NCBI GenBank assembly: GCA_903918755.1
Contig: CAIXFN010000059.1
Location: forward strand, 1-42,591
Source: an uncultured Pedosphaera sp.
GTDB taxonomy: Bacteria > Verrucomicrobiota > Verrucomicrobiia > Limisphaerales > Pedosphaeraceae
Direction of reading: 5' to 3'
DNA: 42,591 nt
Shown: positions 1,990-22,432 of the stretch, one piece after another
How the letters are laid out: each line of letters starts with the position of its first letter
How positions within the stretch are numbered: the stretch's first letter is position 1
The notes under the pieces: model-generated
Database searches by the model: none
What the model was told of the DNA's origin: nothing
Seen by the model: only the letters and a program-made list of their open reading frames with translations
Made by a program: the position numbers and the translations under genes

Positions 1990-2024
1990 TTCCGGGAGTG
2001 GAAGATACTGGCCAAAGAACCTGA

Positions 2025-2945: not shown

Positions 2946-3190
2946 TATTACCGACGAAGCGACTCAGCATCGAAAGCTCACTCCTGGGAGTGGGAGCGGA
3001 TGTGCTCGGACTGCTCGACCGACCCAAGACGGTTTCCAGGATTTGGGAGGAATTGAAGAGCGTTCGGAAGTCGCTGAATGACCGGGGGGAGCGATTGACG
3101 TTCGAGTGGTTCGTGCTGGCGCTGGACTTCCTTTTCCTCACAGATGCGATTTCCCTGCACGAGGGCGTTCTGCAAAGGAGGCAACCATGA
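2942..3190 (+). CDS. ABC-3C middle component, MC6 type
   Basis: This small cytosolic protein of 82 residues starts MILPTKRLS and continues SLLGVGADVLGLLDRPKTVSRIWEEL, then FEWFVLALDFLFLTDAI. This is the pattern of ABC-three-component middle component 6, a winged-helix-like adaptor thought to link the ATPase to the effector/sensor protein. The start overlaps the preceding stop by ATGA, and its own stop overlaps the ATPase start the same way. The length is normal for the family. The family is defined by comparative genomics, so the biochemical role is unproven. Confidence 0.72.
   Translation: MILPTKRLSIESSLLGVGADVLGLLDRPKTVSRIWEELKSVRKSLNDRGERLTFEWFVLALDFLFLTDAISLHEGVLQRRQP
3174..3181 (+). promoter_or_regulatory. 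Strong ribosome-binding site fixing the ATPase start
   Basis: AAAGGAGG lies five bases before the ATG at 3187, inside the end of the MC6 gene. It supports 3187 as the start of the ATPase over an in-frame codon further upstream (3106), which would extend far into the MC6 gene and add a non-conserved leader. Confidence 0.75.
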
Positions 3191-4941
3191 TCCGCGAGGT
3201 GTTCAGCACCCTGCCGAGTTTCAAGGAATTGAGATTGCGACGGGGGCTCAACGTGCTGTTGGCCGACCGGATGGACACGGCGACCGACCGGCAGACCCGA
3301 AACCGCGCGGGCAAATCCAGCCTCGTCGAGGTGATCCATTTTCTACTGGGTGCGAAAGCCGATAAAGAATCCATCTTCCGAAACCAGAGTCTGCGTGAAG
3401 CATACTTTGGCTGCCGTATGGTTGTGGGCGGGGAGAAAGTCACGGTTCGACGGTCGGGCAGCGAACCAGCGCGAGTGTTGGTTGACGCGGATGGTATGTC
3501 TGACTGGCCGGTCCGGCCGAAGGAAAGGAATGGCGACGGACCTTCACTTAGTAATGAAGACTGGAAGGAATTGCTCGGTTGGGAGTGGTTCGGACTACCC
3601 GTGGGCGAGGAGGCGAAGGGCTCGCAGCAACCCTCCCTGCGCTCGCTGATCAGTTATTTCGCGAGGCGCGAATCCGCGAAAGGGTTTCTGGAACCGGTCC
3701 GGCAAAGCGAGGAGCAGAGCAAATGGGATCAGCAGGTCGCGCTGGCCTACCTGCTCGGGCTGGACTGGACCATTGCGCAACGCCTGGAACAAGTGCGGCG
3801 GCAGGAAAAGGCGCTGGCGGAGCTGCGAAAGGCAGCCAAGGAAGGAGCGATCGGCGCGTTTATTCCCAAGGCGAGTGAGTTGCAAACGCAACTGGTGCTT
3901 TTGGAGACGAACGCTGACCGAGTCCGCAAAACGCTGGAATCCTTTGAGGTGCTGCCCGAATACCATGAACTGGAGCGGGAAGCGAGCCAGCTCACGCTCA
4001 AGATCAGCGGCCTGGTGGACGAAAACACCCTGGACGCACAATTTCTGGCCACCATGGAACTGGCCTTGCTGGAGGAAGCGCCGCCGTCCGAGGAGGTGGT
4101 GGAAAAAGTTTACGCCGAGGCCGGGGTGTTGTTGCCGGAGGCGATTTTGAAGCGCCTGGAAGAGGTGCGCGGGTTTCATCGTTCGGTGGTCGCCAATCGC
4201 CGCGGTTATCTGCAAAACGAGATTTCCGGGGCACGAGATCGAATCCGCAAACGGGACCTGGAGAAAGCCGGCTGCGACCAAAGGCGCGCCGAGATCATGA
4301 AATTGTTGCGGTCAAAGGGGGCGCTCGATCAATTTCAGCAATTGCAACGAGAACTAACCCGGCTGGATGCCGCGGTGGAATCGCTCAAGCAACGCTTCCG
4401 CGCGGCGCAACAATTGGAAAGCAGCAAGGTCGATCTCGACATCGAACGACGGCAGCTCGAAAGCCGGTTACGGACGAATCTATTGGAGCAAAATAGCCGG
4501 GTCGAAACGGCCATCCGGGTTTTTGAGGCCATTTCCAAGTCCCTCTACGAGGACGCGGGCAACCTGGTGCTTAATCCCACCCATAATGGCTTGGAAATCG
4601 AGATCAAGATTCAGGGGCAGCGAAGCAAAGGGATTCAGAACATGCAGATATTCTGTTTCGACATGATGTTGATGCAACTTTGCGCGGAGCGAAAGATGGG
4701 CCCGGGTTTCGTGATTCACGATAGTCATCTCTTTGATGGAGTGGATGAACGGCAGGTCGCCAGAGCGCTGGCGGTTGGGGCAAAGAAGGCTGATGAATGT
4801 GGCTGGCAGTATATCGTGACGATGAATTCCGATGCGATACCGAGGTCCTTCCCTGAGGGTTTCGATCTGACGGCGCATATTTTACCGGTGCGGTTAACTG
4901 ATGCCCGCGAGGACGGGGGGCTGTTCGGGATTCGTTTCTAA
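3187..4941 (+). CDS. ABC-3C ATPase, DUF2326 type
   Basis: This 584-residue SMC/RecF-like ABC ATPase is the motor of the ABC-3C module. The N-terminal half-domain carries the P-loop RNRAGKSS (residues 38-45, Lys43), followed by EVIHFLLG. A long helical, coiled-coil-rich middle runs from about 205 to 470. The C-terminal half-domain has the Walker B-like strand FVIHDS (508-513) and the D-loop-like HLFDGVDERQ. These features match DUF2326 proteins, whose ATPase halves meet by folding the coiled coil back. The start chosen has a strong AAAGGAGG site and an ATGA overlap with the MC6 gene. Four bases separate its stop from the next gene. By analogy with other ABC ATPases of conflict systems it may sense or clamp nucleic acid and license the effector; that is inference. 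Confidence 0.8.
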   Translation: MIREVFSTLPSFKELRLRRGLNVLLADRMDTATDRQTRNRAGKSSLVEVIHFLLGAKADKESIFRNQSLREAYFGCRMVVGGEKVTVRRSGSEPARVLVDADGMSDWPVRPKERNGDGPSLSNEDWKELLGWEWFGLPVGEEAKGSQQPSLRSLISYFARRESAKGFLEPVRQSEEQSKWDQQVALAYLLGLDWTIAQRLEQVRRQEKALAELRKAAKEGAIGAFIPKASELQTQLVLLETNADRVRKTLESFEVLPEYHELEREASQLTLKISGLVDENTLDAQFLATMELALLEEAPPSEEVVEKVYAEAGVLLPEAILKRLEEVRGFHRSVVANRRGYLQNEISGARDRIRKRDLEKAGCDQRRAEIMKLLRSKGALDQFQQLQRELTRLDAAVESLKQRFRAAQQLESSKVDLDIERRQLESRLRTNLLEQNSRVETAIRVFEAISKSLYEDAGNLVLNPTHNGLEIEIKIQGQRSKGIQNMQIFCFDMMLMQLCAERKMGPGFVIHDSHLFDGVDERQVARALAVGAKKADECGWQYIVTMNSDAIPRSFPEGFDLTAHILPVRLTDAREDGGLFGIRF

Positions 4942-4945
4942 ATCT

Positions 4946-7900
4946 ATGGCACAAAGCAACCACGAACGCATCGGGAAGGCACTCGAAACTTTGAAGGCGG
5001 GACTCCCGGCCTTCGTGGAGCGCGAACTAAAATCCGCGCACGGAGCGAAATGGTGGGGGACGGTGAAACAAATCACCGGGGCGGGAATGCAGGTCGGCGG
5101 AACGGAGGCCGCGCCGGAGTGGGACGCGGGGTCCGTGCTGAAGGTGCTTTGGGAATGCTGGAATGATGTGTTCGCCAAGACCCTGGGGAGGGCGGAGCGC
5201 AGCCTGACGAGCGAATTGATCGAGGTGCGCAACAAGTGGGCGCATCAGAAAACGTTCACCACGGACGACGCGTACCGGGCGATCGACTCGATGCAACGTT
5301 TGCTCAATGCCGTGGGAGCGCGGGAACAGGCGGATGAACTGACCAAGCAATCCGCGGAATTGCTCCGCTTGAAATTTGACGAGCAGGCCCGGCATGAGCG
5401 GCGGAAGAGCCAGACGACACTGGGTCTCGACGCGCCGCTGGCAGGGCTCAAGCCCTGGCGGGAGGTGGTAACCCCGCACCCGGATGTGGCCTCGGGGCGG
5501 TATCAATTGGCCGAATTCGCGGCGGACCTGTGGGAAGTTTATCAGGGGCGCGGTTCCGAGGAATACCGCGATCCCCAGGAATTCTATCGGCGGACATTTC
5601 TCACGGTGGGATTGAAGGATCTGCTGGTACGGGCGGTGCGGCGGCTGGCGGGGGATGGCAGCGATCCGGTGGTGGAACTGCAAACCAACTTTGGCGGGGG
5701 CAAGACCCACTCGATGCTGGCCTTGTATCACCTGTTTTCGGGGCGGCCGGTGACGGACTTGACGGGGTTGGAACCGGTGATGCAGGAAGCGAAGCAGGCG
5801 CTGACCACCGGGGTCAGACGGGTGGTGCTGGTGGGCAACAAGATCAAGCCGGGGCAACCCGATAAGAAGGACGATGGCACGGTCGTGCGCACGCTGTGGG
5901 GTGAACTGGCCTGGCAACTGGGAGGGAAGGACGGGTATGCGCTGTTGCAGGGGGCGGACGAGACCGCAACGAATCCGGGGGACGCTTTGGGCAAGCTGTT
6001 GCGGAAGTATTCGCCGTGCCTGATTTTGGTGGATGAGTGGGTGGCCTATGCGCGGCAATTGCACGATGACAAGGATTTGCCCGGCGGCGACTTTGAGACG
6101 CAATTCACCTTCGCCCAAACCCTCACCGAAGAAGTGAAGGCCGCGCCAAAAGCCATGCTCGTGGTCAGTCTGCCCGCCTCAACGGACGGTGGCGGCGGGG
6201 TGTCGCCCACCAGCGATGCCCACGATGAAGAGGTCGGGGGTGTGCGGGGACGGGCAGCCCTGGCGGCGTTGCGGAATGTGGTGAGCCGTGTGGCCACGGC
6301 CTGGCGGCCGGCGAACGCGGACGAGAGTTTCGAGATCGTGCGGCGGCGGTTATTCCAGCCGATCACGGACAACGCGCTCTTCACCTCGCGGGATAATACC
6401 GCCAAAGCGTTTTGTGATTTGTACCGCCAGCATCATCAGGAGTTTCCGGCGGAATGCCAGGGACCGGATTATGAGCGCAAGCTCAAGGCCGCGTTCCCCA
6501 TTCATCCGGAGGTTTTCGCCCGGCTGTATCAGGACTGGTCGGGGCTGGTGAAGTTCCAACGGACCCGTGGCGTGCTCCGTTTAATGGCCGCGGTGATCCA
6601 CCGGCTGTGGGCCGACAACGACAAGGGGCCGTTGATCCTGCCCGCCAGCATCCCCTTGGATGATCCCGGGATTGTGTCCCAGCTCACGGGCTATTTGCCG
6701 GGCGGATGGGAGACGGTGATCGAACGCGACGTGGATGGTCTGGGTTCTCTGCCGCGCAAACTGGACGGAGATCGACCGAATTTGGGGCGTTATCAGGCTT
6801 GTCTCCGGGTGGCGCGGACGCTGTTCCTGGGTTCCGCGCCGACGCCCGGCGCGGCCAACCGGGGGGAGGAAGATCGGCGGATAAAATTGGGGTGCGTGCA
6901 ACCGGGCGAAGCGCCTGCGGTATTTGGGGACGCGCTGCGTTATCTCGCCCAGGCGGCGACCTATCTTTACCAGGACAATGCCCGCTATTGGTACGCGACG
7001 CAACCAACGGTTACCAAGCTGGCCGATGACCGGGCCGAAATGCTGAAGCGCGAGCCGGAAAAGGTGGCGGAAGAGATTCAGCGGCGAGTGAAAGAGGATC
7101 TGAAGACCCGTGGTGAGTTTCCGAAGATTCACGCTTTTCCCAGCGGGTCGGGAGACGTGCCGGATGAATTGGAAACGCGATTGGTGGTGCTCACCGTGGA
7201 CAAGCCGTTCGCGAAAGAGGGGCCGAATCCGGCCCTCCAGGCGGCGACGGAGATTTTGGAAAAGCGGGGCAACAGTCCGCGGCTTTATCGCAACACGCTG
7301 GTCTTCCTGGCGGTGGACCGGAGCCGACTGGATGAGTTGGAGGCGGCCACCCGGCACTTCCTCGCGTGGAAGTCCATTTGCGACGAGGCTGGCCAACTGA
7401 ATCTGGATCCGTTCCAGACCCGCCAGGCAAATTCGCAGCGAGGCACTTGGGATAAAACGTCCCACGGCCGGATTTTTGAGACTTTTCAATGGCTGCTGGC
7501 CCCGATGCAAACCAGCGCCCAGTCCCCGCTGGAATGGCAATCTTCGCGGGTCAGTGGCAACGATGCCCTGGCGGTGCGGGCCGCCAAGAAGCTGAAAAAT
7601 GACGGCCAACTGATCGCGTTGTTTCACTCGACGTCGCTCCGGCTGGAATTGGACAAGATTCCGTTGTGGCGCGGGGAGCATGTGGCCGTGAAACAGTTGG
7701 TGGAGGATTTTGCAAGCTACCTTTATCTCCAGCGTCCCCGCGACCCCGAGGTTTTGATCACGGCGATCCGCGAGGGCATAGGTTCGGTGACGTGGCGTTC
7801 CGAGACGTTTGCGTTTGCCGAGAGTTTTGACGAGAACGCCGGCCGCTATCTGGGCCTGCGGGCCGGGAAAGTGGTGCCGGTCTCCGAGAGCGCGCCGGGC

Positions 7901-8305
7901 TTGCTGGTGAAGGCCGAGCGGGCGGCGCGGCAACTGGCCGAGGAGGAGGCCGCCAAGCCCGCGCCAATTACGCCAATCATTCCGCCGACTGGTCAGCCGA
8001 CAACGGTCCCGGGGCAACCGGGCGAGAGGACGGGCCCGGCACCGGTGCAGCCCGGACCAGCCGGGGAGAAGCCGAATCATTTCTTCGGCAATGTGGGGGT
8101 GGATGCCGCCCGGATCAGTCGCGACATGGACACGCTGGCCAAGGAGGTGGTGCAACACTTGGCGAGCCTGCCGGGCGCGGTGGTCAAAGTGACGGTGGAG
8201 ATTCAGGCGAGTGTGCCTTCCGGGGTGCCGGACGCGACGGTGCGGACCGTGAGTGAGAATTGTCGCACGTTGAAATTCACGAGTCACGGATTTGAAAAGG
8301 AGTGA
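4946..8305 (+). CDS. Swt1-like HEPN / DUF499 ATPase
   Basis: This large cytosolic protein has 1119 residues. Residues 1-150 form a helical Swt1-like HEPN domain with the catalytic-type motif RNKWAH (95-100, R-x4-H), the signature of HEPN ribonucleases. A DUF499 P-loop ATPase module follows, with Walker A TNFGGGKTHS (247-256) and Walker B LILVDEW (359-365). A proline-rich linker near 1015-1050 leads to a small C-terminal domain ending in TLKFTSHGFEKE. DUF499 and DUF1156 proteins are known neighbours in defence islands, which fits the methylase gene at the other end of this cassette. The ATG at 4946 is chosen because the HEPN domain begins right there and it sits four bases after the ATPase stop; an earlier in-frame codon (4901) would overlap that gene. 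It is probably the effector/motor subunit. RNA cleavage is predicted, not shown. Confidence 0.82.
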   Translation: MAQSNHERIGKALETLKAGLPAFVERELKSAHGAKWWGTVKQITGAGMQVGGTEAAPEWDAGSVLKVLWECWNDVFAKTLGRAERSLTSELIEVRNKWAHQKTFTTDDAYRAIDSMQRLLNAVGAREQADELTKQSAELLRLKFDEQARHERRKSQTTLGLDAPLAGLKPWREVVTPHPDVASGRYQLAEFAADLWEVYQGRGSEEYRDPQEFYRRTFLTVGLKDLLVRAVRRLAGDGSDPVVELQTNFGGGKTHSMLALYHLFSGRPVTDLTGLEPVMQEAKQALTTGVRRVVLVGNKIKPGQPDKKDDGTVVRTLWGELAWQLGGKDGYALLQGADETATNPGDALGKLLRKYSPCLILVDEWVAYARQLHDDKDLPGGDFETQFTFAQTLTEEVKAAPKAMLVVSLPASTDGGGGVSPTSDAHDEEVGGVRGRAALAALRNVVSRVATAWRPANADESFEIVRRRLFQPITDNALFTSRDNTAKAFCDLYRQHHQEFPAECQGPDYERKLKAAFPIHPEVFARLYQDWSGLVKFQRTRGVLRLMAAVIHRLWADNDKGPLILPASIPLDDPGIVSQLTGYLPGGWETVIERDVDGLGSLPRKLDGDRPNLGRYQACLRVARTLFLGSAPTPGAANRGEEDRRIKLGCVQPGEAPAVFGDALRYLAQAATYLYQDNARYWYATQPTVTKLADDRAEMLKREPEKVAEEIQRRVKEDLKTRGEFPKIHAFPSGSGDVPDELETRLVVLTVDKPFAKEGPNPALQAATEILEKRGNSPRLYRNTLVFLAVDRSRLDELEAATRHFLAWKSICDEAGQLNLDPFQTRQANSQRGTWDKTSHGRIFETFQWLLAPMQTSAQSPLEWQSSRVSGNDALAVRAAKKLKNDGQLIALFHSTSLRLELDKIPLWRGEHVAVKQLVEDFASYLYLQRPRDPEVLITAIREGIGSVTWRSETFAFAESFDENAGRYLGLRAGKVVPVSESAPGLLVKAERAARQLAEEEAAKPAPITPIIPPTGQPTTVPGQPGERTGPAPVQPGPAGEKPNHFFGNVGVDAARISRDMDTLAKEVVQHLASLPGAVVKVTVEIQASVPSGVPDATVRTVSENCRTLKFTSHGFEKE

Positions 8306-12100: not shown

Positions 12101-12541
12101 GTCGTGAAAATATGCGATTGCCCGGACGGCCGCAAGGCCATACCCGGGATACCCGTGTGCGGCAGTGGTTAATCGCCGTAGGTCGTGGGTGGCTGATGCG
12201 GCCTGAAGAGATGGCGGGGGACGGGATGCGGGCGGTTTCAGCGGGGGAAGAAGAAGGGGCGTGCCCCGTGGTAGCGCGCCACCTTCAGGGCGCTGAAAGG
12301 AAAATGCGGGAAAACCCAGCCTGTTAGGATGGGCTATCGAATCACGGCCTTTCAAGCCGTTCGGATGACGCGCCGGTGGGGGGCGGGCATGGCGGACGGG
12401 ATGGGACAATTGGCACAGGGAATGCTTTTGCATGGCAGTGGTTTGCTGCTGAAATGATGCAAGAGTTTGATAAAAAACAATTTGACGATAGACTTGGATT
12501 GTCCCGGGGGCATGGCGGGTGCTGGGGTGACAGGTAAAACG
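12101..12541. other. Gene-free interval of 441 bp with repeat copy 3
   Basis: The interval separates the divergent vapB gene and the exopolysaccharide locus. It carries triple-hairpin copy 3 (12269-12379). The last ~110 bases before the next gene turn AT-rich (around 12420-12495) and probably hold its promoter, although no clear box pair stands out. Short open frames here look like chance. Confidence 0.55.
12269..12379 (+). repeat. Triple-hairpin dispersed repeat, copy 3 (decayed)
   Basis: The copy has the same order of three stems as copies 1 and 2. Stem 2 has a mismatch (CCCAGCC against GGATGGG) and stem 3 has lost its inner pairs (GGCCTTTCAAGCC), so this copy has drifted. It shares AAAACCCAGCCTGTTAGG and GCTATCGAATCACGGCC with copy 2. 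Confidence 0.75.
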
Positions 12542-13723
12542 ATGGCAACCGAATTGGAATCGGTGGGGGCAGGGCAGTCGCGGTTCACGCTGGACGGAAG
12601 TCCGGCGCTGGAGCGGCATCTCCAGAGGGTGTGTACGCAAGTCGCGGAGGGGGTGGCGGCCGTGGTTTCTCCCGGGAGCCTGGAGGGGGTGTTGCTCGGG
12701 GGCGGGTATGGTCGCGGGGAAGGCGGAGTGTTGCGGACGCCGACCGGGGATGAGCCGTACAACGATCTGGAATTTTATGTTTTTACGCGGGGCAACGCGG
12801 TGCTGGCGGAACGGCGGTATCGCGGGAAGTTGCATGCCCTGGGTCACGCATTGACGCCGATGGCGGGGATCGAGGTGGAATTCAAGGTGTTGACGTTCTC
12901 CAAACTGCGCGGGGCCGGGCCTTCCATGTTTTATTATGATCTGCTGGCGGGGCACCGTTGGGTCGTCGGGGAGGAGTCGCTGCTGGCGGGGTGCGAGCAT
13001 CACCGGGAGGCGGGGGCGATTCCCTTGCATGAAGCCACGCGCCTGCTCATGAATCGGTGCAGCGGGTTGCTGTTCAGCCGGGAGCGGCTGGAGCGGGCGA
13101 ATTTCGGGCCGGAAGAAGCGGATTTTGTGGGGCGGAACCTGGCCAAGGTGCAACTGGCGCTGGGGGATGCCTGGCTGGCGGCGGGGGGGCGGTACCATTG
13201 GAGTTGCCGGGAGCGGCAGCAGCGGTTGGAGGCAGCGCCGGGGACGGCCGCCGAGGCGGATTGGCTGGCGGCGGTGCGCCGACACCATACGGCGGGGGTG
13301 GAATTCAAACTGCACCCGGTGCGGGCCAACGCGGGGCGCGAGGAATTGGCGGCGCGGCATGCGGAGTTGAGCCGGCTGGCGCGGGAATTCTGGCTGGCGC
13401 TGGAAAGCCGGCGGTTGGGGACGCCATTTGGCAGTCCACGCGCCTATGCCGAGAGCGCGGTGGACAAGTGTCCGGAGACGTCGCCGTGGCGGAATCGGTT
13501 GGTGAACGCCCGGGCCTTCGGGGCGGGGGCGGCGTGGGGTCCCCGCGCCAGTCGGTATCCCCGGGAACGATTATTGCACGCGCTGGCGTTGCTGCTCTGG
13601 GAGCCCGGGGTGCTGGCGGAGGCGGGTGGCCGGCGGCTTTTGCAGCAGGAATTGCACACGGAGGCGGCGGATTTTTCCGGGCTGGTGGCGGCCTACGAAC
13701 AATTGTGGCAGCGGTTTAACTGA
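12542..13723 (+). CDS. Nucleotidyltransferase-like protein of the EPS locus
   Basis: This cytosolic protein of 393 residues has the marks of the polymerase-beta nucleotidyltransferase fold: GGGYGRGEGG (residues 53-62), an acidic pair NDLEFYVF (Asp75, Glu77) and a third acidic strand EVEFKVL (111-117). The spacing suits the hG[G/S]-x-[D/E]h[D/E] signature plus a distal acid. The rest is helical. I know no named function; such proteins occur beside glycosyltransferases, so a sugar- or protein-modifying nucleotidyl transfer is possible but unproven. The ATG at 12542 is preferred, as upstream in-frame starts (ATG 12512, TTG 12467) reach into the AT-rich promoter-like stretch; the start is uncertain. 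It is followed after two bases by a glycosyltransferase gene, so it probably heads the operon. Confidence 0.68.
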   Translation: MATELESVGAGQSRFTLDGSPALERHLQRVCTQVAEGVAAVVSPGSLEGVLLGGGYGRGEGGVLRTPTGDEPYNDLEFYVFTRGNAVLAERRYRGKLHALGHALTPMAGIEVEFKVLTFSKLRGAGPSMFYYDLLAGHRWVVGEESLLAGCEHHREAGAIPLHEATRLLMNRCSGLLFSRERLERANFGPEEADFVGRNLAKVQLALGDAWLAAGGRYHWSCRERQQRLEAAPGTAAEADWLAAVRRHHTAGVEFKLHPVRANAGREELAARHAELSRLAREFWLALESRRLGTPFGSPRAYAESAVDKCPETSPWRNRLVNARAFGAGAAWGPRASRYPRERLLHALALLLWEPGVLAEAGGRRLLQQELHTEAADFSGLVAAYEQLWQRFN

Positions 13724-13725
13724 GT

Positions 13726-14934
13726 ATGCGCATCCTGGTCGTTTATCCTTACATTCCTTATCCCCCGGACCGGGGGACCTATCAGCGGACGTATCACCTG
13801 CTGCGGGCGCTGGCGCGGGATCACGAGGTGGACCTGCTGGCGTTGAGCGAGGGGGGCGAGCGACTGGAACAGCAGCCGGTGTTTGCGGAGTTTTGTCGGC
13901 GCGTGGAGTTCGTGCCGTTCCAGCATCCGAAATGGCCGCGGCTGTTTCCCGATCGCTTGCTGAACCCGCTGCCGACCACGGTGGTGCATTGGCAATTGCC
14001 GCAGGTGGCGGAGGCGATCCGGAAGTTTGCGGCGGGGCAAACGTATCAACTGGTGCACGTGTGCGACATCGTGATGGCGCAGTATTTTTTCGCGCAGCTG
14101 GCGGACCGGCCGCTGGCGATCGACCGGAGCCGGGTGGACTGGCAGTTCCAACTGGCGCAGCGGGAGGCGATGTCCAAGGGCATGCGGCAGGCGCTGTTGG
14201 ATTGGGAGAATCTGGCCAAACTGGAGCGGTTCGAACGGCGGATTGCCAAACGCGTGGCGGTGGAGGTGGTGTGCGGGCCGGATGATGAGACGTTCATTCG
14301 GGAGCGGATCAGCCGGGAAGTGGCGGTGGAGGTGGTGACCAACGGGGTGGATCTGGATTACTTCCGGCCGGAAGCGGCGAAGGACCGGCGGGGGCTGGAG
14401 CCGACGGTATTGTTTTGCGGGGCGATGGATTACACCCCGAATGTGGATGCCTTGCGGTGGTTTTTTACCGAGATGCACGCGGCCTTGCGGAAACGGGTGC
14501 CCAACTGCCAGGTGTTAATCGTGGGCAAGGCGCCGGTGCCGGAAGTGCAGGCCTACGGGGCATTGCCCGGGGTGACGGTGACGGGGGGCGTGCCGGATGT
14601 GCGGCCGTATTACCGGCGGGCGTGGCTGCAGATTGTGCCCTTGCGGATCGGGGGCGGAACGCGGTTAAAGATTCCGGAGAGCATGGCCATGGGGACGCCG
14701 GTGGTTTCGACCACGATCGGGGCCCAGGGTTTGGGCTTGCGGCACGGGGACGATTTATTGCTGGGGGATACGCCGGAAGCCTTTGTGGAGCAAACTGCGC
14801 GCGGGTTGACGGACACGGCCTTGCGAGGGCACCTGGAGGAGGAAGGCCGGAAGACGGTGCACGCGCGGTTGGCGTGGCCGATGCTGGGGAAGCAGTTGAG
14901 CGATTATTATGCAAAACGGTTTGGGCAAGACTGA
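13726..14934 (+). CDS. GT4-type glycosyltransferase
   Basis: This is a 402-residue GT-B glycosyltransferase. The N-terminal domain opens MRILVVYPYIPYPPDRGTYQR, close to sugar transferases associated with EpsH/PEP-CTERM exopolysaccharide loci. The C-terminal nucleotide-sugar domain contains VVTNGVDLDYFRP, a CGAMDYTPN strand, and VPLRIGGGTRLKIPESMAMGTPVV, the family-4 sugar-nucleotide signature with its Glu. No membrane segment is seen, so it should act at the inner face of the membrane on a lipid-linked glycan. It starts two bases after the nucleotidyltransferase-like gene, and its last 26 bases overlap the next gene. Donor and acceptor sugars cannot be told. Confidence 0.87.
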   Translation: MRILVVYPYIPYPPDRGTYQRTYHLLRALARDHEVDLLALSEGGERLEQQPVFAEFCRRVEFVPFQHPKWPRLFPDRLLNPLPTTVVHWQLPQVAEAIRKFAAGQTYQLVHVCDIVMAQYFFAQLADRPLAIDRSRVDWQFQLAQREAMSKGMRQALLDWENLAKLERFERRIAKRVAVEVVCGPDDETFIRERISREVAVEVVTNGVDLDYFRPEAAKDRRGLEPTVLFCGAMDYTPNVDALRWFFTEMHAALRKRVPNCQVLIVGKAPVPEVQAYGALPGVTVTGGVPDVRPYYRRAWLQIVPLRIGGGTRLKIPESMAMGTPVVSTTIGAQGLGLRHGDDLLLGDTPEAFVEQTARGLTDTALRGHLEEEGRKTVHARLAWPMLGKQLSDYYAKRFGQD

Positions 14935-15307
14935 GCGCTATGAATTTCTGCGTCACCGGCGGTTTTGGTGGCCGGTGGCGGCCCTGCTTTTGCTCAGCGC
15001 CGCGGGTGGGGTGGCGGTCTGGCGGGCGGGGTTGTCCTGGGTGGCGGTGGTGAACGATTCCGGGATGGAAATCAAAATGCTGAAAGTAAAAGCCTGCGGG
15101 CAGGAGCAGACCTTTGCCGAGGTGGGGGAAGGCGAATCCGTGCGCCTGAGCTTGCAGAGGAAGGGTGGGCCATCCGAAATCAGCATTGCTACGAACGGCA
15201 TGGAGATGTGGCATGGGGATTACATCGAAGCGCAGGGCGGGTATCACGGGATCGTCCGGTTGCAACGGGATGGCCAGGTCGATTCAACCGTGACCCAGAC
15301 CTGGTAA
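14909..15307 (+). CDS. Small single-pass membrane protein, unknown
   Basis: The protein has 132 residues, with a basic N-terminus (LRHRRFWW) and one transmembrane segment (about 20-38). An outside domain of about 90 residues follows that looks beta-rich (WVAVVNDSGMEIKMLKVKA, ESVRLSL, YHGIVRLQ). I do not recognise a family. It begins inside the end of the glycosyltransferase gene (26-base overlap), which supports co-translation within the exopolysaccharide operon. No other in-frame ATG gives the membrane segment. It may be an envelope-anchored accessory of polysaccharide assembly. Confidence 0.55.
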   Translation: MQNGLGKTERYEFLRHRRFWWPVAALLLLSAAGGVAVWRAGLSWVAVVNDSGMEIKMLKVKACGQEQTFAEVGEGESVRLSLQRKGGPSEISIATNGMEMWHGDYIEAQGGYHGIVRLQRDGQVDSTVTQTW

Positions 15308-15347
15308 TTTGCGGGAACCAATTTCAAACCAAAGCAGTCTCACCAAC

Positions 15348-16838
15348 ATGGTAACTGAAAATCTTATAGCCAAAATGGGCGCACCGGTGGTCGGGGATCG
15401 GAAGCCGCCGATTGCGATCCTGGGCGTGCCGTTTGACAACGTGACCGTGGCGGACACGCGCCGGATTTTCGGGGAAATGATCGCCTCCAAGAAGCCGCAT
15501 TATGTGGCGACGGCAAATGTGGATTTTGTGGTGCAGGCGCTGGGGGACGTGGAACTGCGGCGGATTTTGGCGGATGCGGATCTGATCCTGTGCGACGGCA
15601 TGCCGCTGGTGTGGGCGTCGCGCTTGCTGGGGAACGCCTTGCCGGAGCGAGTGACGGGGTCGGACATGGTGCCGAAACTGCTGGCGGACGCGGAACAAAA
15701 CGGGTGGCGGGTGTTTTTTCTGGGGGGCAAGGAGGAGAGCATCGCGCGGGCGACGGCCAACGTGCGGGCGAAGCACCCCAAAATCCAACTGGTCGGGGCC
15801 TATTCGCCGCCGTTCAAGCCGCTGCTGGAGATGGACCAGGAGGATATTTTGCGGCGGATCAAGGAAGTGCAACCGGACATTTTGCTGGTGGCGTTCGGCT
15901 GCCCGAAACAGGAGAAGTGGATCCGGATGAATTTTGAGCAGGCGGGAGTGCCCTTGAGCATCGGGGTGGGGGCCACGATTGATTTTCTGGGCGGGATTGT
16001 GAAGCGGGCGCCGGTGTGGATGCAGCGGACGGGCCTGGAATGGATCTTCCGGCTCTTGCAGGAGCCGCGGCGGTTGTTCCGTCGCTACTTCACGGATTTT
16101 TGGGTGTTTGGCCGGGCGATCCTGCGGCAGTGGTGGGCGTTGCGCGGCGTGCGGAATCAGGCAAAACGCCTGAACCCGGTGAGTTCCGAATCCGGTTGCG
16201 GCGGCACGTGCGAGGTGGTGCGCTGCTCCGAGCGATTGGATGCGGCGACCGTGCGGGAGTATGAGGAGCTGTGGAAGCAATTGGCGGCGTGCGATGCGAA
16301 CCTGATTTTTGATTTGCATCAGGTGAACTACCTCGACAGCACCGGAGTGGGATTGCTGGTGCGGATGCAAAAGCAATTGCGCGGTAAGAACCGGCAGTTG
16401 GTGTTGGCGGCGGCGACGCCGCAGGTGCAACGGGTGCTGGCCTTGATGAAATTCACCGAGTTTTTTGCGCTGGCGGCCGACTTGAACGCCGCCCGGCTGC
16501 TGATTGCCGACCGGGCCGGGGAGAAGAACGTGGTGATGACCGTGGAGATGGCGGGCAAGGAGGAGGTGCTGGTGTGGCAGGGAGATATTGTGGCGGTGAA
16601 TGAAGAGGCCGTGTGGAAAATGACAAAACTCCACCTGGAGGCGGCGGCCGGGCGCGGGGCGGGGTTGACGATCCTGCTGGCGGAGGTGCGGTTCATTGAC
16701 AGCGCGGGGGTGCGGGTCATGTTGAAGACCCGGAAGGAAGCGTTGAAGCTGGGACTGAAACTGAAATTTGCGGCCGCCTCGCCGCCGGTTTTGAATGTGT
16801 TGCGGATTTTGCGACTGGAGGTGCACTTGCTGGGTTGA
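15348..16838 (+). CDS. WecG/TagA/CpsF glycosyltransferase fused to two STAS domains
   Basis: The protein has 496 residues. Residues ~18-250 are a GT26 (WecG/TagA/CpsF) glycosyltransferase: TANVDF (55-60), ADLILCDGMPLVWASRLLG (77-95), RVTGSDM (101-107), AFGCPKQEKWI (182-192), GVGATIDFLGG (206-216) and RAPVWMQRTGLEWIFRLLQE (220-239). Such enzymes add N-acetylmannosamine-type sugars to lipid-linked intermediates. It continues into two STAS domains: one around 285-385 with YLDSTGVGLL (Ser331, the usual phospho-site), and a second around 395-496 with FIDSAGVRVM (Ser452). Free STAS proteins bind anti-sigma kinases or other regulators, so the fusion suggests regulated glycosyl transfer. The start at ATG 15348 avoids a TTG extension (15309). 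It sits between two glycosyltransferase genes. Confidence 0.88.
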   Translation: MVTENLIAKMGAPVVGDRKPPIAILGVPFDNVTVADTRRIFGEMIASKKPHYVATANVDFVVQALGDVELRRILADADLILCDGMPLVWASRLLGNALPERVTGSDMVPKLLADAEQNGWRVFFLGGKEESIARATANVRAKHPKIQLVGAYSPPFKPLLEMDQEDILRRIKEVQPDILLVAFGCPKQEKWIRMNFEQAGVPLSIGVGATIDFLGGIVKRAPVWMQRTGLEWIFRLLQEPRRLFRRYFTDFWVFGRAILRQWWALRGVRNQAKRLNPVSSESGCGGTCEVVRCSERLDAATVREYEELWKQLAACDANLIFDLHQVNYLDSTGVGLLVRMQKQLRGKNRQLVLAAATPQVQRVLALMKFTEFFALAADLNAARLLIADRAGEKNVVMTVEMAGKEEVLVWQGDIVAVNEEAVWKMTKLHLEAAAGRGAGLTILLAEVRFIDSAGVRVMLKTRKEALKLGLKLKFAAASPPVLNVLRILRLEVHLLG

Positions 16839-16855
16839 TGGATTGATTGAGGCGT

Positions 16856-18010
16856 ATGCGAATTGCTATTTCCACCACGGTGATGCAGCGCGGCAAGTCC
16901 GGGGTGGGCCAGACCATCCTCGCGCTGGTGAAGGCCCTGCTGGCAGAGCCCGGCGACCATGAACTGGTGCTGCTGGTGCTGGCGGAGGATGTCCCGTTGT
17001 TCCAATTTGCCGCCGGACGGGCGGAAATCGTGACGGTGCCGGAAAGTTACCGGCCGGCCATTCGGAATATCCTCTGGCACCAGACCCAGCTGCCGGCGGT
17101 GCTCAAACGGCTGCGGATCGATGTGGTGCATGTGCCCAGCTACCGGCGCTTGCTGTACCGGAGCCCGTGCGCGACGGTGGCCACAATCCATGATCTGGCG
17201 CCGTTCCATGTCCGCGGCAAATACGACATGGCCCGGATGTTTTACGGCCGGGTGGTGGTGCGGATGCTGGCGCGGCGGCAGGATGAGATTATCACCATCA
17301 GCGCGAATACCGCGCGGGATGTGGAACGGTTTTTTGGCGTGCCGGTCGCGCGGCAAAATGTGATTTGGAACGGGATTGATCATGTCCGGTTCCAACCCGG
17401 GAACGCTAGTGAGGCGCGCGCCGAAGCGGCGCAACGATGGCAACTGGCGGCCCCCTTCTTTCTCTATATTTCGCGCCTGGAGCATCCGGCGAAGAATCAT
17501 GTGCGGTTGATTCAGGCGTTCAATCGCTTCAAGAATCGCACAAATTCCAACTGGCAGTTGGTCCTCGGGGGCAGCGACTGGCATGGCGCGGAAGTCATCC
17601 ACGCCGAGGTGGCGGCGTCGCCTTACGCCCGGGACATTCGCTGTCTGGGGTTTGTGGATGATGCGACGCTGCCGGTGCTTTACCGGGCGGCGGAAGTGAT
17701 GGTGTATCCTTCGTTGTTCGAGGGGTTTGGACTGCCGCCGGTGGAAGCGATGGCGTGCGGGTGTCCGGTGTTGAGTTCGACGCGGGGGTCGCTCGCGGAA
17801 GTGGTGGCCGGCGCGGCGGAGACCCTGGAGCCGGAGGATGTGGACAACATGGCGGCGGGATTACAGCGGCTGGCGGAGGACGGGGGACGGCGGGGGCAAT
17901 TGCGGGCGGCTGGATTGGAGAATGCCCGGCGATTCGATTGGGGGCAGAATGCCCGGCAGGTGCTCGCGGTGTACCGGGCGGCCTTGGTGCGGCGGTCCGG
18001 GAAGGCGTGA
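16856..18010 (+). CDS. GT4-type glycosyltransferase
   Basis: This is a 384-residue GT-B glycosyltransferase. It begins MRIAISTTVMQRGKSGVGQ, has TIHDLAPFH, IITISANTARDVERFFGV and NGIDHVRFQP. The C-terminal E-x7-E motif is PSLFEGFGLPPVEAMACGCPV, typical of mannosyl/glucosyl transferases of family 4. It is soluble or peripheral. ATG 16856 is preferred to TTG 16847 because it is preceded by GAGG and starts the Rossmann strand directly. The gene lies 17 bases after the GT26-STAS gene in the same operon. It is unlike the first GT4 protein of this locus in sequence, so the two probably add different sugars. Confidence 0.9.
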   Translation: MRIAISTTVMQRGKSGVGQTILALVKALLAEPGDHELVLLVLAEDVPLFQFAAGRAEIVTVPESYRPAIRNILWHQTQLPAVLKRLRIDVVHVPSYRRLLYRSPCATVATIHDLAPFHVRGKYDMARMFYGRVVVRMLARRQDEIITISANTARDVERFFGVPVARQNVIWNGIDHVRFQPGNASEARAEAAQRWQLAAPFFLYISRLEHPAKNHVRLIQAFNRFKNRTNSNWQLVLGGSDWHGAEVIHAEVAASPYARDIRCLGFVDDATLPVLYRAAEVMVYPSLFEGFGLPPVEAMACGCPVLSSTRGSLAEVVAGAAETLEPEDVDNMAAGLQRLAEDGGRRGQLRAAGLENARRFDWGQNARQVLAVYRAALVRRSGKA

Positions 18011-18254: not shown

Positions 18255-20276
18255 ATGAACGAGGTTCCAGACAATTCAAGGGCATCCAAGCCCGGCGAGG
18301 CCGAGTCAGCGCCGGTCGAGGAGCGACTGCCCGCGGCGGAGGGGGCGACCAAGCCGGCGAAACCCGCGGGGTTGCCGTTTGATCCGCTGCGCTTGGTGAC
18401 CGCCTTGTTGCGCCGCTGGCTGCTGATTCTCATCTCAGGGGCGGTGCTGGGCGTGCTGGGCGGATTGGGGGCATATTCCAAATTCTCGGCCGACTACAAA
18501 GCCGGCGCCCAACTGATGCGGCAGGAGCCTTCCTCGACGTTCCGGGCCTCGGAACTGGGGGAGCCGTTCAAACCGCGCCAATTATCCGTGACGACCCTGG
18601 TGGGATTCATGAAGTCGCCGGCGGTGATGCAACGGGTGGCGGAGCAGGTGCAACTGCCGGCGCGGATGGTGTCGGGCGGGTTGACGATCACCCCGGAGCG
18701 CAACACCGACCTGATCAACCTGACGTACACCACCAAGCGGAGCCGGCAAACGGCGGCGCGCGTGCTCAATGCGTTTGGGAACGAAGTGGTGCGGATGACC
18801 CGGGAGATGCAGTCGCAGGAGGCCTCGGAAATCAACCGTTTGCTCAAGCGGCAGGTGGCGAAGGCGGACGATGACCTGCGCACGATCAACAATGAGCTGC
18901 TGGAGTTTTCGAAACAGGCCGGGATCATCAACGCGGACAAGGAAATTGATGCCTACTTGCGGAGTTTGGGCGATGTGGACATGAAGTTTGAGACCATGCG
19001 CATCGATTATGAGACGGCGGATTTGAAGATCGCCGCGCTGGAAAAGGAACTGGCGCTCAACAATCCGATGGCGGAACGCTTGACGATGGCGCGGGAAAAG
19101 CTGGCACAGATGCTGCAGCAATTCACGCCGGCCAATCCGCTGGTGGAAGAGCAGAAGGGGGTGGTGGCGGAATTGGAGGCGAAGATGAAGGAGTCGGAGG
19201 ATAAGCCGATGGCCGCGCCCCGGCAGGGCGAGAGCGGGCTGGCGACGACATTTTATACGGAGTTGATGAGCCTCAAAACGCAGAAGCAGGTGATTTCGGC
19301 GCAATTGGAGAAGCTCAAGACGGTGCGCTCCGGCTTGGAAGACAAGCTGAAGGGACTGCCGGAGAAAGGGATGCAACTGGCCCGGATGAAGGCCCGGCAA
19401 CAAGCGCTGGAATCCGCCCAGGCGCTCCTGACCAGCCGGCAGCGGGAGGCGCAGGTGTATGAAGAGAATCCCCTGGGGTATTACCGGTTTTTTGACGCCA
19501 AGGTGGACGATGTGGAAATGTCCGGTCGCGGGAAGAAGGTGATCATGGTGACGGTGGCGGCGGGATTCTTTGGGGTATTTCTGGCGATGTTCGGTGTCTG
19601 CCTGGTGGAGTCTTTTGATGACCGGATTGTGACCAAGTCGGATTTGAAACGGGTGACCAAGCTGCCGCTCCTGGCGACCCTGCCGGACCTGGATGAGTTG
19701 GACAGTGTCGCCCAGGCCAATTGGTCTTTCCGCACCTGGCTGGCCTTGAAGGCCAAGTTTCTGGAAGGGCCGCGGGGGGAAATCGTCTGCGGCTGGCTGT
19801 CAGCCCACCGGTCCGAAGGGTGTTCGACGTGGGTGGATTTGCTGGCGCGGGCGGCCGCCCAGCGGAGTGAGAATGTGCTGGTGGTGACCAATCACGCGCC
19901 CGTCAACGGGGCGGTGCAGCCGTTGGAGGGAGCGCTGGCGGATCCGGCGTCAGTCGGAATTAAACGCGGTACGCCGCGCTGGCTGCTGACCCCGCCAGAC
20001 TGGCATTGGGACGCGGAGCGCCGGCGGCAGTGGCGGACGGCGATGGAGAAATGGACCCAGGCGGAAGGCTTGGTGGTGCTGGTGGCACTGACCAAGGTGG
20101 ATCAGCCCGAAACGTTGTTATTTGAAGGGGACCTCACCCAACTGGTGTGGGTGGCGCGCAGTGGCTACTCCCGGAGCAAGGAAACCGCGGAGCGCTTGTT
20201 CAATATGCAAAACGCCGGGTGTCGCTTTGCTGGGACCGTGCTCAACTCTGAACCGAAGATTCTACCCTGGGCATGA
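18255..20276 (+). CDS. Wzc/GumC-like polysaccharide chain-length protein with degenerate kinase domain
   Basis: This inner-membrane protein has 673 residues. A cytosolic Pro/Ala-rich leader is followed by TM1 (about 54-74), a long periplasmic coiled-coil region (about 75-420), and TM2 (about 428-450). The cytosolic tail resembles a bacterial tyrosine kinase/ParA fold. Wzz/Wzc proteins set chain length and dock to the Wza export channel. In the tail, the place of the P-loop GEGKST reads SEGCST (residues 520-525), so the ATP-binding lysine is Cys523, and no Tyr-rich C-terminal cluster is seen. It therefore probably has no kinase activity. A FAGTVLNSEP-like end of the ParA fold is kept. Its stop overlaps the next start (ATGA), coupling it to the export protein. 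Confidence 0.85.
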   Translation: MNEVPDNSRASKPGEAESAPVEERLPAAEGATKPAKPAGLPFDPLRLVTALLRRWLLILISGAVLGVLGGLGAYSKFSADYKAGAQLMRQEPSSTFRASELGEPFKPRQLSVTTLVGFMKSPAVMQRVAEQVQLPARMVSGGLTITPERNTDLINLTYTTKRSRQTAARVLNAFGNEVVRMTREMQSQEASEINRLLKRQVAKADDDLRTINNELLEFSKQAGIINADKEIDAYLRSLGDVDMKFETMRIDYETADLKIAALEKELALNNPMAERLTMAREKLAQMLQQFTPANPLVEEQKGVVAELEAKMKESEDKPMAAPRQGESGLATTFYTELMSLKTQKQVISAQLEKLKTVRSGLEDKLKGLPEKGMQLARMKARQQALESAQALLTSRQREAQVYEENPLGYYRFFDAKVDDVEMSGRGKKVIMVTVAAGFFGVFLAMFGVCLVESFDDRIVTKSDLKRVTKLPLLATLPDLDELDSVAQANWSFRTWLALKAKFLEGPRGEIVCGWLSAHRSEGCSTWVDLLARAAAQRSENVLVVTNHAPVNGAVQPLEGALADPASVGIKRGTPRWLLTPPDWHWDAERRRQWRTAMEKWTQAEGLVVLVALTKVDQPETLLFEGDLTQLVWVARSGYSRSKETAERLFNMQNAGCRFAGTVLNSEPKILPWA

Positions 20277-21325
20277 AACTTTTACCGGCTTGGGCGGTAT
20301 TATTGACAGCCACGGTTCTGTTTTTGAGTGCCGGGGCAGGGGCGCGCGCCCAAAAGGCAATTATTCCGGTGGTGCCCAAGCCGGAAGCGCCGAAGGTGTT
20401 CGCCGCCTCGAATGCCAAAGCCCGGGCCGCCTGGCAGAAACATCTCACCCTGGGGCCCAACGATGTGATCAACATTTCGTATTATGGGAAATCGGAGTTG
20501 GACCGGGCGAACCTATTGATCGGGCCGGATGGGCGGTTGAGCTACCTGCAGGCGCAGGGGGTCATGGCCAGCGGGTTGACCATTGATGAACTGCGGGACG
20601 TGATGACGACAGAGATTGCGAAGTATTATCGCAACCCACGGCTCATGATTTCGCCGGGGGAATTCCGGAGTAAGAAGTTTTATATCCTGGGGAAAATTGT
20701 GGACAAGGGAGCCTTTACCCTGGACCGGCCCTTGACCCTGCTGGAAGGGGTGGCGCAGGCGGGGGGGCTGGAGACGGGGCTCTACCAGTTAAACACAGTG
20801 GAACTGGCGGATTTTCAGCGGAGCTTTCTGATTCGCAACCGGCAGCGGGTGGCGGTGGATTTTGAGAAATTGTTCCGTGAGGGCGACCTATCCCAAAACA
20901 TCCTGCTGGAACCGGATGACTACCTGTATTTTCCCTCCGCCAACAACAATGAGATCTATGTCCTAGGCTCGGTGAAATCCCCCGGGGCGCAGGGTCTCGA
21001 CATGAATGCGAATGTCCTGCAAGTCGTGACGCTGGCGGGTGGATTTACGGAACGCGCGTTCAAGGAGCGGGTGCTGGTGGTGCGGGGCAGTCTGGATCAT
21101 CCGCAGCGGATCATCGTGGACTGCGGCGCTGCGCTGGCGGCCAAGGCGCTGAGTTTCCGGCTGCAACCGCGCGACATTATTTATGTGTCTGACCAGCCGT
21201 GGGCCCGGGTGGAGGATTTGGCGGACCTGGCGGCAACCTCGTTCATTGAAACGGTGGTCACGATTTGGACCGGCGGCAACATCGGTCCGCTGATCACCCA
21301 TCCGTTTGTGCCGACGCTCAAATAA
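20273..21325 (+). CDS. Wza-type polysaccharide export protein (SLBB)
   Basis: This 350-residue protein has a signal peptide of about 26 residues ending ARA-Q and no lipobox cysteine, so it is probably periplasmic or peripheral at the outer membrane. A Poly_export domain (LGPNDVINISYYGKSELD, GPDGRLSYLQAQG) is followed by SLBB-type repeats (YILGKIVDKGAFTLD, PLTLLEGVAQAGG, EIYVLGSVKSPG, VVTLAGGFTE). Such proteins build the outer-membrane polysaccharide channel. It is coupled by ATGA to the Wzc-like gene, and nine bases later comes a paralogue. Confidence 0.88.
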   Translation: MKLLPAWAVLLTATVLFLSAGAGARAQKAIIPVVPKPEAPKVFAASNAKARAAWQKHLTLGPNDVINISYYGKSELDRANLLIGPDGRLSYLQAQGVMASGLTIDELRDVMTTEIAKYYRNPRLMISPGEFRSKKFYILGKIVDKGAFTLDRPLTLLEGVAQAGGLETGLYQLNTVELADFQRSFLIRNRQRVAVDFEKLFREGDLSQNILLEPDDYLYFPSANNNEIYVLGSVKSPGAQGLDMNANVLQVVTLAGGFTERAFKERVLVVRGSLDHPQRIIVDCGAALAAKALSFRLQPRDIIYVSDQPWARVEDLADLAATSFIETVVTIWTGGNIGPLITHPFVPTLK

Positions 21326-21334
21326 TGGCTGGCG

Positions 21335-22432
21335 ATGAACGCGCGCTTATTCAATTGGGGGTCGGTCGTGGGAATTGCCCTGGCGGCAGTGGGATTGGGG
21401 TTGGCGGGCTGTGCCGTCACCAAGGGACCGAGTTTTGATCCGCGGGCCAAGGCGGTGGGGGCCGGGGGAACGAACGCGTCCGGGATTTTCACGAACGCCA
21501 CTGCGAGCAAGATCAAGCCCGAGTGGTTGGTGCCCTCCAAGGAACCCTACCGGCTGGGGCCGGGGGACAAGTTGGAACTCGAATTGGTCGGCCGGACCGG
21601 CACGCGGACGACCACCTTTGTGTGCCCGGATGGCAAGATCTACTACGACCTGCTGCCGGGAATGGATGTGTGGGGGCTTTCGCTGGAGGAGGCCCGGCAC
21701 GCGCTGGAAACGGAATTGGCGAAATATTATGTGCGGCCGCAGCTTTCGGCGAACCTCTCCCGGGTGGTCAGCAAGCGGGTCTGGGTGTTGGGGCGGTTGA
21801 ACAAGTCCGGCCTGTTTCCGTTGGATGGGCCCATGACGGTGATCGAGGCCATCTCCCGGGCCGGCGGTCTGTTCACCTCACGCTTCAACGGGACCACCGA
21901 AGAATTGGCCGATCTGAATCACAGCTTTCTGATCCGGGGCGGGGAGATGTTGCCGATCGATTTTAAGAAGCTCTTGCGGGAGGGGGATACGGCGCAGAAT
22001 ATTTACCTGGAGCCGGATGACTTCATCTATCTGCCCTCCTCGCTTTCTTCCGAGATTTACGTCCTGGGGGCGGTGAACGGGCCGCGGCCGGTGGGGTACG
22101 CGGACAATATCACGCTCACAACGGCCATTGCCAAGGCCCTGGGAACCTCGCCGCAGGCGCAACTCACCCACGTGGCAATCGTGCGGGGCTCGCTGGTGCA
22201 GCCGAAAATCGCGATCGTTGATTTCAATGCGATTCTCAAGGGGCGGGCGACGGATGTACGGTTGGAAGCGCGGGATATTGTGTACGTGCCCCTCAGTCCC
22301 TACCGGACAATCGATCGCTACGCCAAGATGATCACGGACACCTTTGTGCGCACGGTGGCGGCGAACGAGGGCGGTCACGCGGTGGATTCGAAGTTTGGCG
22401 GGGTGGGCGTGAGCAGTCCGCTCACCAAATAA
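21335..22432 (+). CDS. Wza-type polysaccharide export lipoprotein, second copy
   Basis: This 365-residue protein has a lipoprotein signal (LGLAGC, Cys26), then a Poly_export domain (LGPGDKLELELVGR, PDGKIYYDLLPGMDVWG) and SLBB repeats (VWVLGRLNKSGLFPLD, MTVIEAISRAGG, EIYVLGAVNGPRPVG). It is clearly paralogous to the preceding gene (shared SFLIR, REGD-x-x-QNI-x-LEPDD, EIYVLG) but lipidated. The pair suggests a hetero-oligomeric channel or two export proteins working with one chain-length protein. ATG 21335 gives the lipobox at the right distance. It is the last exopolysaccharide gene of the run, and the ureide genes start 28 bases later with no visible terminator. Confidence 0.88.
   Translation: MNARLFNWGSVVGIALAAVGLGLAGCAVTKGPSFDPRAKAVGAGGTNASGIFTNATASKIKPEWLVPSKEPYRLGPGDKLELELVGRTGTRTTTFVCPDGKIYYDLLPGMDVWGLSLEEARHALETELAKYYVRPQLSANLSRVVSKRVWVLGRLNKSGLFPLDGPMTVIEAISRAGGLFTSRFNGTTEELADLNHSFLIRGGEMLPIDFKKLLREGDTAQNIYLEPDDFIYLPSSLSSEIYVLGAVNGPRPVGYADNITLTTAIAKALGTSPQAQLTHVAIVRGSLVQPKIAIVDFNAILKGRATDVRLEARDIVYVPLSPYRTIDRYAKMITDTFVRTVAANEGGHAVDSKFGGVGVSSPLTK

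Follow-up and report, generated by a model that had tools for sequence, protein, structure and literature searches.

The gene at positions 15348..16838 on the forward strand of the window, by which we mean the whole stretch of 42,591 nucleotides from an uncultured Pedosphaera sp., encodes a WecG-type glycosyltransferase that continues into two STAS domains. This raises the question of whether an enzyme of polysaccharide synthesis can itself carry part of a regulatory phospho-switch, as considered in an earlier note on this DNA, which had suggested that glycan synthesis might be switched by phosphorylation or nucleotide binding.

Architecture of the fusion protein and its polysaccharide locus

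The reading frame opens with an ATG at 15348, with a TTG at 15309 as a possible alternative start, and codes for a GT26-STAS-STAS protein of 496 amino acids, as judged by profile matches and by an AlphaFold model (window protein plus 45 related loci) with a pLDDT of 89.9 and a pTM of 0.87. The catalytic GT26 part (WecG/TagA/CpsF) together with its C-terminal appendage, which contains R235 and R242, covers approximately residues 20-247 (15405..16088, forward strand) and was delimited by PF03808, Foldseek, and an alignment with TagA. The WecG profile PF03808 matched residues 77-247 with an E-value of 6.8e-67 and 224.9 bits against the Pfam cut-off of 27.4, and TIGR00696 scored 156.6 against a cut-off of 69; on the same protein, the equivalog models EpsA and TarA both remained below their cut-offs. 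In a phmmer comparison with TagA (7mpk, E-value 7.9e-39), T55, D83, R235, and R242 aligned with T37, D65, R214, and R221, in agreement with the earlier description of the catalytic motifs as intact, and Foldseek superimposed the GT part on the 7mpk structure with a TMt of 0.95. T37, D65, and R221 are proposed active-site residues of TagA, and the appendage that bears R221 is required for both catalysis and membrane binding, according to the available text of the source (PMC6493773). By its profile matches, its equivalents of T37, D65, and R221, and its appendage, the protein is assignable to the GT26 family, and it probably adds a sugar early in surface polysaccharide synthesis.

A model helix comprising residues 240-266 extends from the appendage toward the first STAS domain, and the end of this appendage-derived helix plus the linker occupy 16089..16202. 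STAS domain 1 (approximately residues 286-390, 16203..16517; Pfam, model, and Foldseek) is attached right behind the membrane-binding-type appendage of the GT part, and STAS domain 2 (approximately residues 402-496, 16551..16835; Pfam and model) follows, all on the forward strand. The two stretches matched PF01740 with an E-value of 4.5e-25 and 87.9 bits over the whole protein (Pfam). The putative phospho-acceptors are Ser331 in a D-S-T-G motif (codon at 16338..16340, forward strand) and Ser452 in a D-S-A-G motif (codon at 16701..16703, forward strand), and in the model each of them opens a helix that follows a strand of the STAS fold. The best Foldseek match of the STAS part was RsbV of the RsbV/RsbW complex (TMt 0.81), and by fold and helix-start serine the fused domains are predicted to be of the RsbV/SpoIIAA type. 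Pfam, the model, and Foldseek thus agree with the earlier assignment of two C-terminal STAS domains with serines at the phospho-site positions. A chance resemblance or an annotation artefact is ruled out by the Pfam matches, the AlphaFold model, and the serine conservation in 30 fusions that is described below.

The neighboring genes lie on the same strand. Upstream of the fusion there are a 418-aa reading frame (12467..13723), a GT4 glycosyltransferase gene (13726..14934; domain scan and synteny), and a 132-aa reading frame (14909..15307); both reading frames have no Pfam match and adjoin the fusion in many relatives, as indicated by synteny. A further GT4 gene (16847..18010; domain scan and synteny) is found directly 3' of the fusion in many relatives as well. 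It is followed by the gene of a Wzc/Wzz-like chain-length protein with a degenerate P-loop (18255..20276), which has no Pfam match and was identified by reading, and by two genes for Wza-like polysaccharide export proteins with Poly_export and SLBB matches in Pfam (20273..21325 and 21335..22432). The P-loop of the Wzc-like protein reads S-E-G-C-S-T in the window. Among the 27 Wzc-like rows that reach this position, the P-loop lysine is present in five (L072, L140, L145, L153, and L155), and the remaining rows have C, R, or A at this position or a broken motif; no tyrosine cluster was found in the C-terminal tails of the Wzc-like proteins shown. Judged from these motifs, many of these loci may no longer be under BY-kinase control, and a serine switch in its place could be compatible with that. 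At the other end of the window, positions 139-8305 contain Hma-like defence genes. The HmaB match (E-value 2.9e-223) covers only the C-terminal two thirds of the profile, with the contig starting just upstream, the HmaC match has an E-value of 0, and PDC-M68A/M68B proteins with ABC-3C CTD10 domains are encoded between the two.

Recurrence of the fusion and conservation of its serines

In 221 of 293 genomes of the order, some match to the fusion protein was obtained at E-values of 0.001 or lower, many of these being plain GT26 proteins, and at least 64 of the 293 encode a GT26 protein with one or more STAS domains. This number is a lower bound that counts the genomes whose GT26 row in a 68-row alignment had at least one STAS domain, with plain GT26 rows of long frames outside the count; it includes six catalytically dead forms (G276, G260, G272, G250, G285, and G166) and two forms with one STAS domain (G050 and G076). 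Two peptide patterns recovered at least 546 relatives, of which the best 80 named loci were analyzed with motifs taken from their alignment. By their titles, 76 of these 80 come from Verrucomicrobiota lineages, among them subdivision 3/Limisphaerales, Opitutaceae, and Akkermansiaceae; of the other four, three are labeled simply 'bacterium' and one bears the name of an archaeon. The contig titled Methanomassiliicoccaceae archaeon (L196), with a GT26-STAS gene and a Wzc match, is likely a mis-binned bacterial contig. Three of the best 80 of 546 (L199, L206, and L207) have GT26 without STAS. One-STAS versions occur in some Akkermansiaceae and Opitutales, and two isolates among the best 80 of 546, Rubritalea marina DSM 17716 and Haloferula luteola YC6886, have such a version. 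In R. marina, it shares a 14-kb locus (L198) with a stand-alone STAS gene and a gene for KP, the candidate kinase/phosphatase described below. The number of order genomes and the named loci rule out an oddity of one genome or an assembly join. The architecture had been called unusual for a GT26 enzyme, and it is indeed a variant form, but not a singular one, as it recurs in Verrucomicrobiota.

The earlier note had named a lack of conservation of the serines among homologous fusions as evidence against a phospho-switch, but they proved to be conserved. Aligning 30 fusions from the order showed S331, S452, D330, D451, and G454 in 30/30 each, and T332 and G333 in 29/30 each. The stretch D330-G333 is the sole run of four neighboring STAS columns that is conserved in at least 29 of the 30 fusions, and the mean column conservation was 0.54 and 0.56 in the two STAS domains versus 0.80 in the GT part. 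The wider set of 68 GT26 rows at order level, which includes the 30 aligned fusions, had serine at the first position in 62 of the 65 rows that possess the first STAS domain, and at the second position in 57 of the 60 rows whose second STAS domain could be read. Among the 80 named loci, the best of the at least 546 relatives, the first serine was found in 72 of the 77 that have the domain, and T55, N57, D83, R235, and R242 were present in 79 of 80, the exception being L188; these named loci partly coincide with the order genomes and do not form an independent set. Regarding other STAS matches in the window's own genome, a stand-alone protein has the motif D-S-S-G, and a 655-aa STAS-bearing frame (L003), which is probably a SulP transporter, reads D-A-T-G.

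A candidate kinase/phosphatase partner

The window's own genome encodes one protein with both HATPase_c_2 and SpoIIE domains (589 aa, termed KP in the following), among 27 HATPase_c_2 and 2 SpoIIE matches. Its gene lies directly 3' of the gene for a 100-aa STAS protein and 5' of a response regulator gene (RR), in a run with genes for a Bac_transf priming enzyme, a GT4 and a GT2 glycosyltransferase, a flippase, and a methyltransferase-like protein, which is a second polysaccharide operon. In the window's assembly, the KP half is on contig C13 and the fusion half on C59. The kinase residues E53, N57, D88, G109, and G111 and the phosphatase residues D385, D403, D522, and D577, which we take to be the catalytic positions, were kept in 60 of 60 KP rows, a set that includes genome repeats and leaves out two loci with a partial match. 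A GAF domain is located between kinase and phosphatase in the KP of the relative L077, and none was found at threshold in the own-genome KP. On contig C13 (L060, 15006-19477), genes for a YfiR/HmsC-like protein, a TonB receptor, and a PAS histidine kinase are found beside the priming-enzyme and KP genes, and these are a possible signal input.

KP is encoded in a polysaccharide locus together with the fused STAS domains in L072-L081 and L091, and in six of these (L073, L074, L075, L076, L081, and L091) KP and the fusion are within one polysaccharide gene stretch of less than 20 kb. The L075 stretch has no priming-enzyme match, L091 has a different gene order and no flippase match, and L076, which belongs to the window's own genus, ends within the GT26 gene. 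An RsbW-like kinase, which the earlier note had proposed to look for near such loci, is encoded in the own genome on another contig and, in several relatives, within the cluster of the fusion, and the predicted kinase/phosphatase KP is a candidate for the interaction partner whose absence would have spoken against switching. In most loci examined, a stand-alone STAS gene adjoins KP. In L075, L116, L117, and L118, two stand-alone STAS genes are arranged in tandem 5' of KP, a possible route to the tandem fusion.

KP and the fusion tend to occur together. A full KP was detected in 50/64 fusion genomes versus 22/229 others (Fisher p 2.6e-26), in 30/40 fusion genera versus 11/78 (p 7e-11), and in 20/26 fusion families versus 5/36 (p 8e-7); these tests were thinned by genus and family and are not fully phylogeny-corrected. 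KP presence was read by hand, with a strict set at E-values of 1e-75 or lower and a looser limit, to about 1e-54, for the named loci, in which two fragmentary cases (L193 and L195) are included. Contig-end fragments matching only the GT part (G140, G159, and G225) were excluded from the fusion set, and G140 and G159 are thus scored as KP-only. In 11 of the 64 fusion genomes, KP is on the contig of the fusion within about 25 kb. In 14 of the 64, no full KP was found; fragments were seen in G019, G216, and G008, and some KP-less fusion genomes are incomplete, such as G291 (73%) and G163 (67%). We also inspected 11 of the 22 KP-only genomes, and all 11 contained a STAS-KP-RR cassette, with a whole priming-enzyme match nearby in two and a broken-up one in one, which indicates that KP has its own substrate and does not require the fusion.

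A link between KP and intact serines was apparent in the raw counts, as both serines were intact in 73/80 cases with KP versus 12/22 without (p 2e-4). On independent pairs of the tree, this link was unsupported (8 pairs, serine state seldom differing, median p 1), and we therefore do not use it as proof. In the serine test, G076, with one STAS domain whose serine is present, was scored as 'not both intact'. The KP-fragment genomes G019 and G216 were left out of the order-genome test and counted as KP in the tree-pair test, from which L192 with its uncertain KP was left out; the truncated rows G240, G044, G259, and G163 were dropped from the order-genome test and scored on the residues present in the tree-pair test. 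Of the 14 untruncated rows of fusions without KP, 7 still had both serines. KP is present, yet the first serine is replaced by G in L177 and L183 and the second by T in L152, and G014, G055, and G147 have KP and one changed serine each. L207 has KP in its genome and GT26 without STAS.

A clade of eight rows (L077, L078, L079, L080, L087, L088, L089, and L188; SH-aLRT 99 in a quick tree) has a GT26 part without N57, D83/G84, and the appendage, and R101 and G104 are also lost in the seven rows of this clade in which these positions were read. Each of the eight nevertheless retains both STAS serines. The gene order KP, RR, GT26-STAS-STAS is found in five of the eight members (G276, G260, G272, G250, and L188), and in G276, G260, G272, and G250 the KP and RR genes overlap by 4 bp, with a gap of 6-150 bp to the fusion when the furthest-upstream start is taken. 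The sequence stretches retrieved for these five contained no further STAS. When whole genomes were searched, G250 and the L188 genome, G309, had no stand-alone STAS protein below 150 aa; G276 and G272 had one each, and G260 had a weak one; in G166 and G278, KP lies beside stand-alone STAS genes on a contig other than that of the dead GT26-STAS-STAS gene. As catalysis appears to be lost but the serines persist throughout the clade, the STAS part is presumably held for something besides catalysis. That the STAS pair seems to have outlived the catalytic residues, mostly beside the predicted kinase, is to us the most striking single result.

A proposed partner switch joined to its effector

The architecture, the catalytic and phospho motifs, the cluster shared in relatives, the co-occurrence, and the gene order of the dead clade are firm at the level of sequence comparison. 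The best reading of these data, to which we give somewhat better than an even chance, is a partner switch resembling SypA/SypE that is covalently joined to its effector, a polysaccharide glycosyltransferase. The fusion would be a GT26 transferase that belongs to a Wzx-type exopolysaccharide locus, acts early, and is associated with the membrane, and its two STAS domains would form the effector-side half of a partner-switching module. KP, as a predicted RsbW-like serine kinase with a SpoIIE/PP2C phosphatase whose gene lies with those of a stand-alone STAS protein and a CheY-like response regulator at the same locus in several relatives, would phosphorylate and dephosphorylate Ser331 and Ser452 or bind the unphosphorylated STAS domains. 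The switch would alter the availability, the membrane placement, or the active-site closure of the transferase, and with it the amount of polysaccharide that is started. The early pathway position is our interpretation; by analogy to SypA, the unphosphorylated form would be the active one, and the effect would presumably concern enzyme activity rather than transcription. Slime production may then be switched directly on the enzyme and not via gene expression. With respect to the original suggestion of switching by phosphorylation, the conserved serines and the candidate kinase/phosphatase speak in its favor, and the phosphotransfer from KP to the two serines is the step that we infer; no observation points to nucleotide binding as the switch.

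This partner-switch reading is supported by the invariance of D330-S331 and D451-S452-G454 amid otherwise variable STAS domains in 30/30 fusions, by the intact KP in the own genome, the shared clusters in relatives, and the co-occurrence, by the order KP-RR-GT26-STAS-STAS and the retention of both serines in the dead clade, and by the position of STAS domain 1 directly behind the appendage that TagA needs for catalysis and membrane binding. Fusions with both serines but without KP, KP genomes with changed serines, and the location of the two halves on different contigs in the window's assembly speak against it, as does the stand-alone STAS protein beside KP in most loci, which may be the sole substrate of KP. 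If KP indeed acts only on the latter, the fused domains could be a competitor or sink that binds the kinase or titrates the partner of the stand-alone STAS protein, and the enzyme would report the level of the EPS machinery and not be the step under control. The STAS-KP-RR cassette, itself conserved and found without the fusion in the 11 inspected of the 22 KP-only genomes, would agree with such a sink, and a pure binding protein might likewise have kept both serines in the dead clade. However, there are compact loci without a stand-alone STAS gene beside KP, including those of G250 and G309 with none below 150 aa genome-wide, and a sink does not obviously need intact phospho-serines, so that we regard this explanation as unlikely.

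It was also conceivable that the STAS domains are structural and serve dimerization, membrane hold, or docking to the priming enzyme or flippase without any phosphorylation, which are roles that STAS domains play in SulP transporters or MlaB. The attachment of STAS domain 1 directly to the membrane-binding appendage, the one-STAS versions in some Akkermansiaceae and Opitutales, and the fusions that keep STAS without KP would all be compatible with this, but nowhere are the STAS domains better conserved than in D-S-T-G, and several relatives have KP in the cluster of the fusion, which makes a purely structural role unlikely in our estimation. That the STAS domains are classical anti-sigma antagonists, with the fused protein freeing a sigma factor to regulate EPS transcription and the GT part reporting or anchoring, is very improbable. 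The closest STAS structures, which are of the RsbV/SpoIIAA type, speak for it, but the cluster genes that were mapped or scanned, without a sigma-specific search, included no recognized sigma factor gene, and the catalytic residues of the GT part are kept in most fusions.

If the partner-switch reading is correct, an early transferase step of EPS synthesis would be subject to serine phospho-switching, and the loci concerned mostly encode a Wzc-like protein without the P-loop lysine. We tentatively extend it, with the balance rather against this extension, to the view that partner switching was moved off gene regulation onto a biosynthetic enzyme in Verrucomicrobiota, where it gates chain start, and that the dead clade represents a pseudoenzyme, a dedicated client of KP, and perhaps a dominant partner of an active transferase.

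The fusion shares the fold and catalytic residues with TagA/TarA, WecG, and CpsF of GT26, but TagA ends at the appendage, whereas two STAS domains follow it here. With RsbV/RsbW and SpoIIAA/SpoIIAB and their phosphatases SpoIIE/RsbU, it has in common the STAS fold, the phospho-serine motif, and the families of kinase and phosphatase. The RsbV/RsbW and SpoIIAA/SpoIIAB systems act on sigma factors, and their kinase and phosphatase are separate proteins. Among the papers listed, our search found none on STAS-WecG/TagA fusions, on STAS domains in verrucomicrobial exopolysaccharide synthesis, or on partner switching in Verrucomicrobia, which is weak evidence of novelty, as subscription papers were mostly outside the search. 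Precedents for STAS-linked control of polysaccharides, as far as the available text of the sources goes, are All4160 and SypA/SypE. All4160 of Anabaena combines an N-terminal STAS domain with a glycosyltransferase (PMC8256260), and HEP polysaccharide synthesis depends on it (PMC4390870). It resembles the present protein as a STAS domain fused to a glycosyltransferase, but its STAS domain is at the opposite end and the available parts of both sources mention no kinase partner. SypA, a free single STAS domain (PMC8256260), controls biofilm formation of Vibrio fischeri and is phosphorylated at Ser56 by SypE (PMC4517449); the STAS serine, the bifunctional kinase-phosphatase, and the polysaccharide locus (syp) are shared features, whereas here two tandem STAS domains reside within a transferase and the response regulator is encoded by a separate gene. 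Both of these sources describe the mechanism or target of SypA as unknown (PMC4517449, PMC8256260). With the STAS domains covalently joined to the candidate target, this question turns into a direct enzyme assay, and if both the enzyme gating and the pseudoenzyme interpretation are true, free STAS proteins such as SypA may likewise have a glycosyltransferase as their target.
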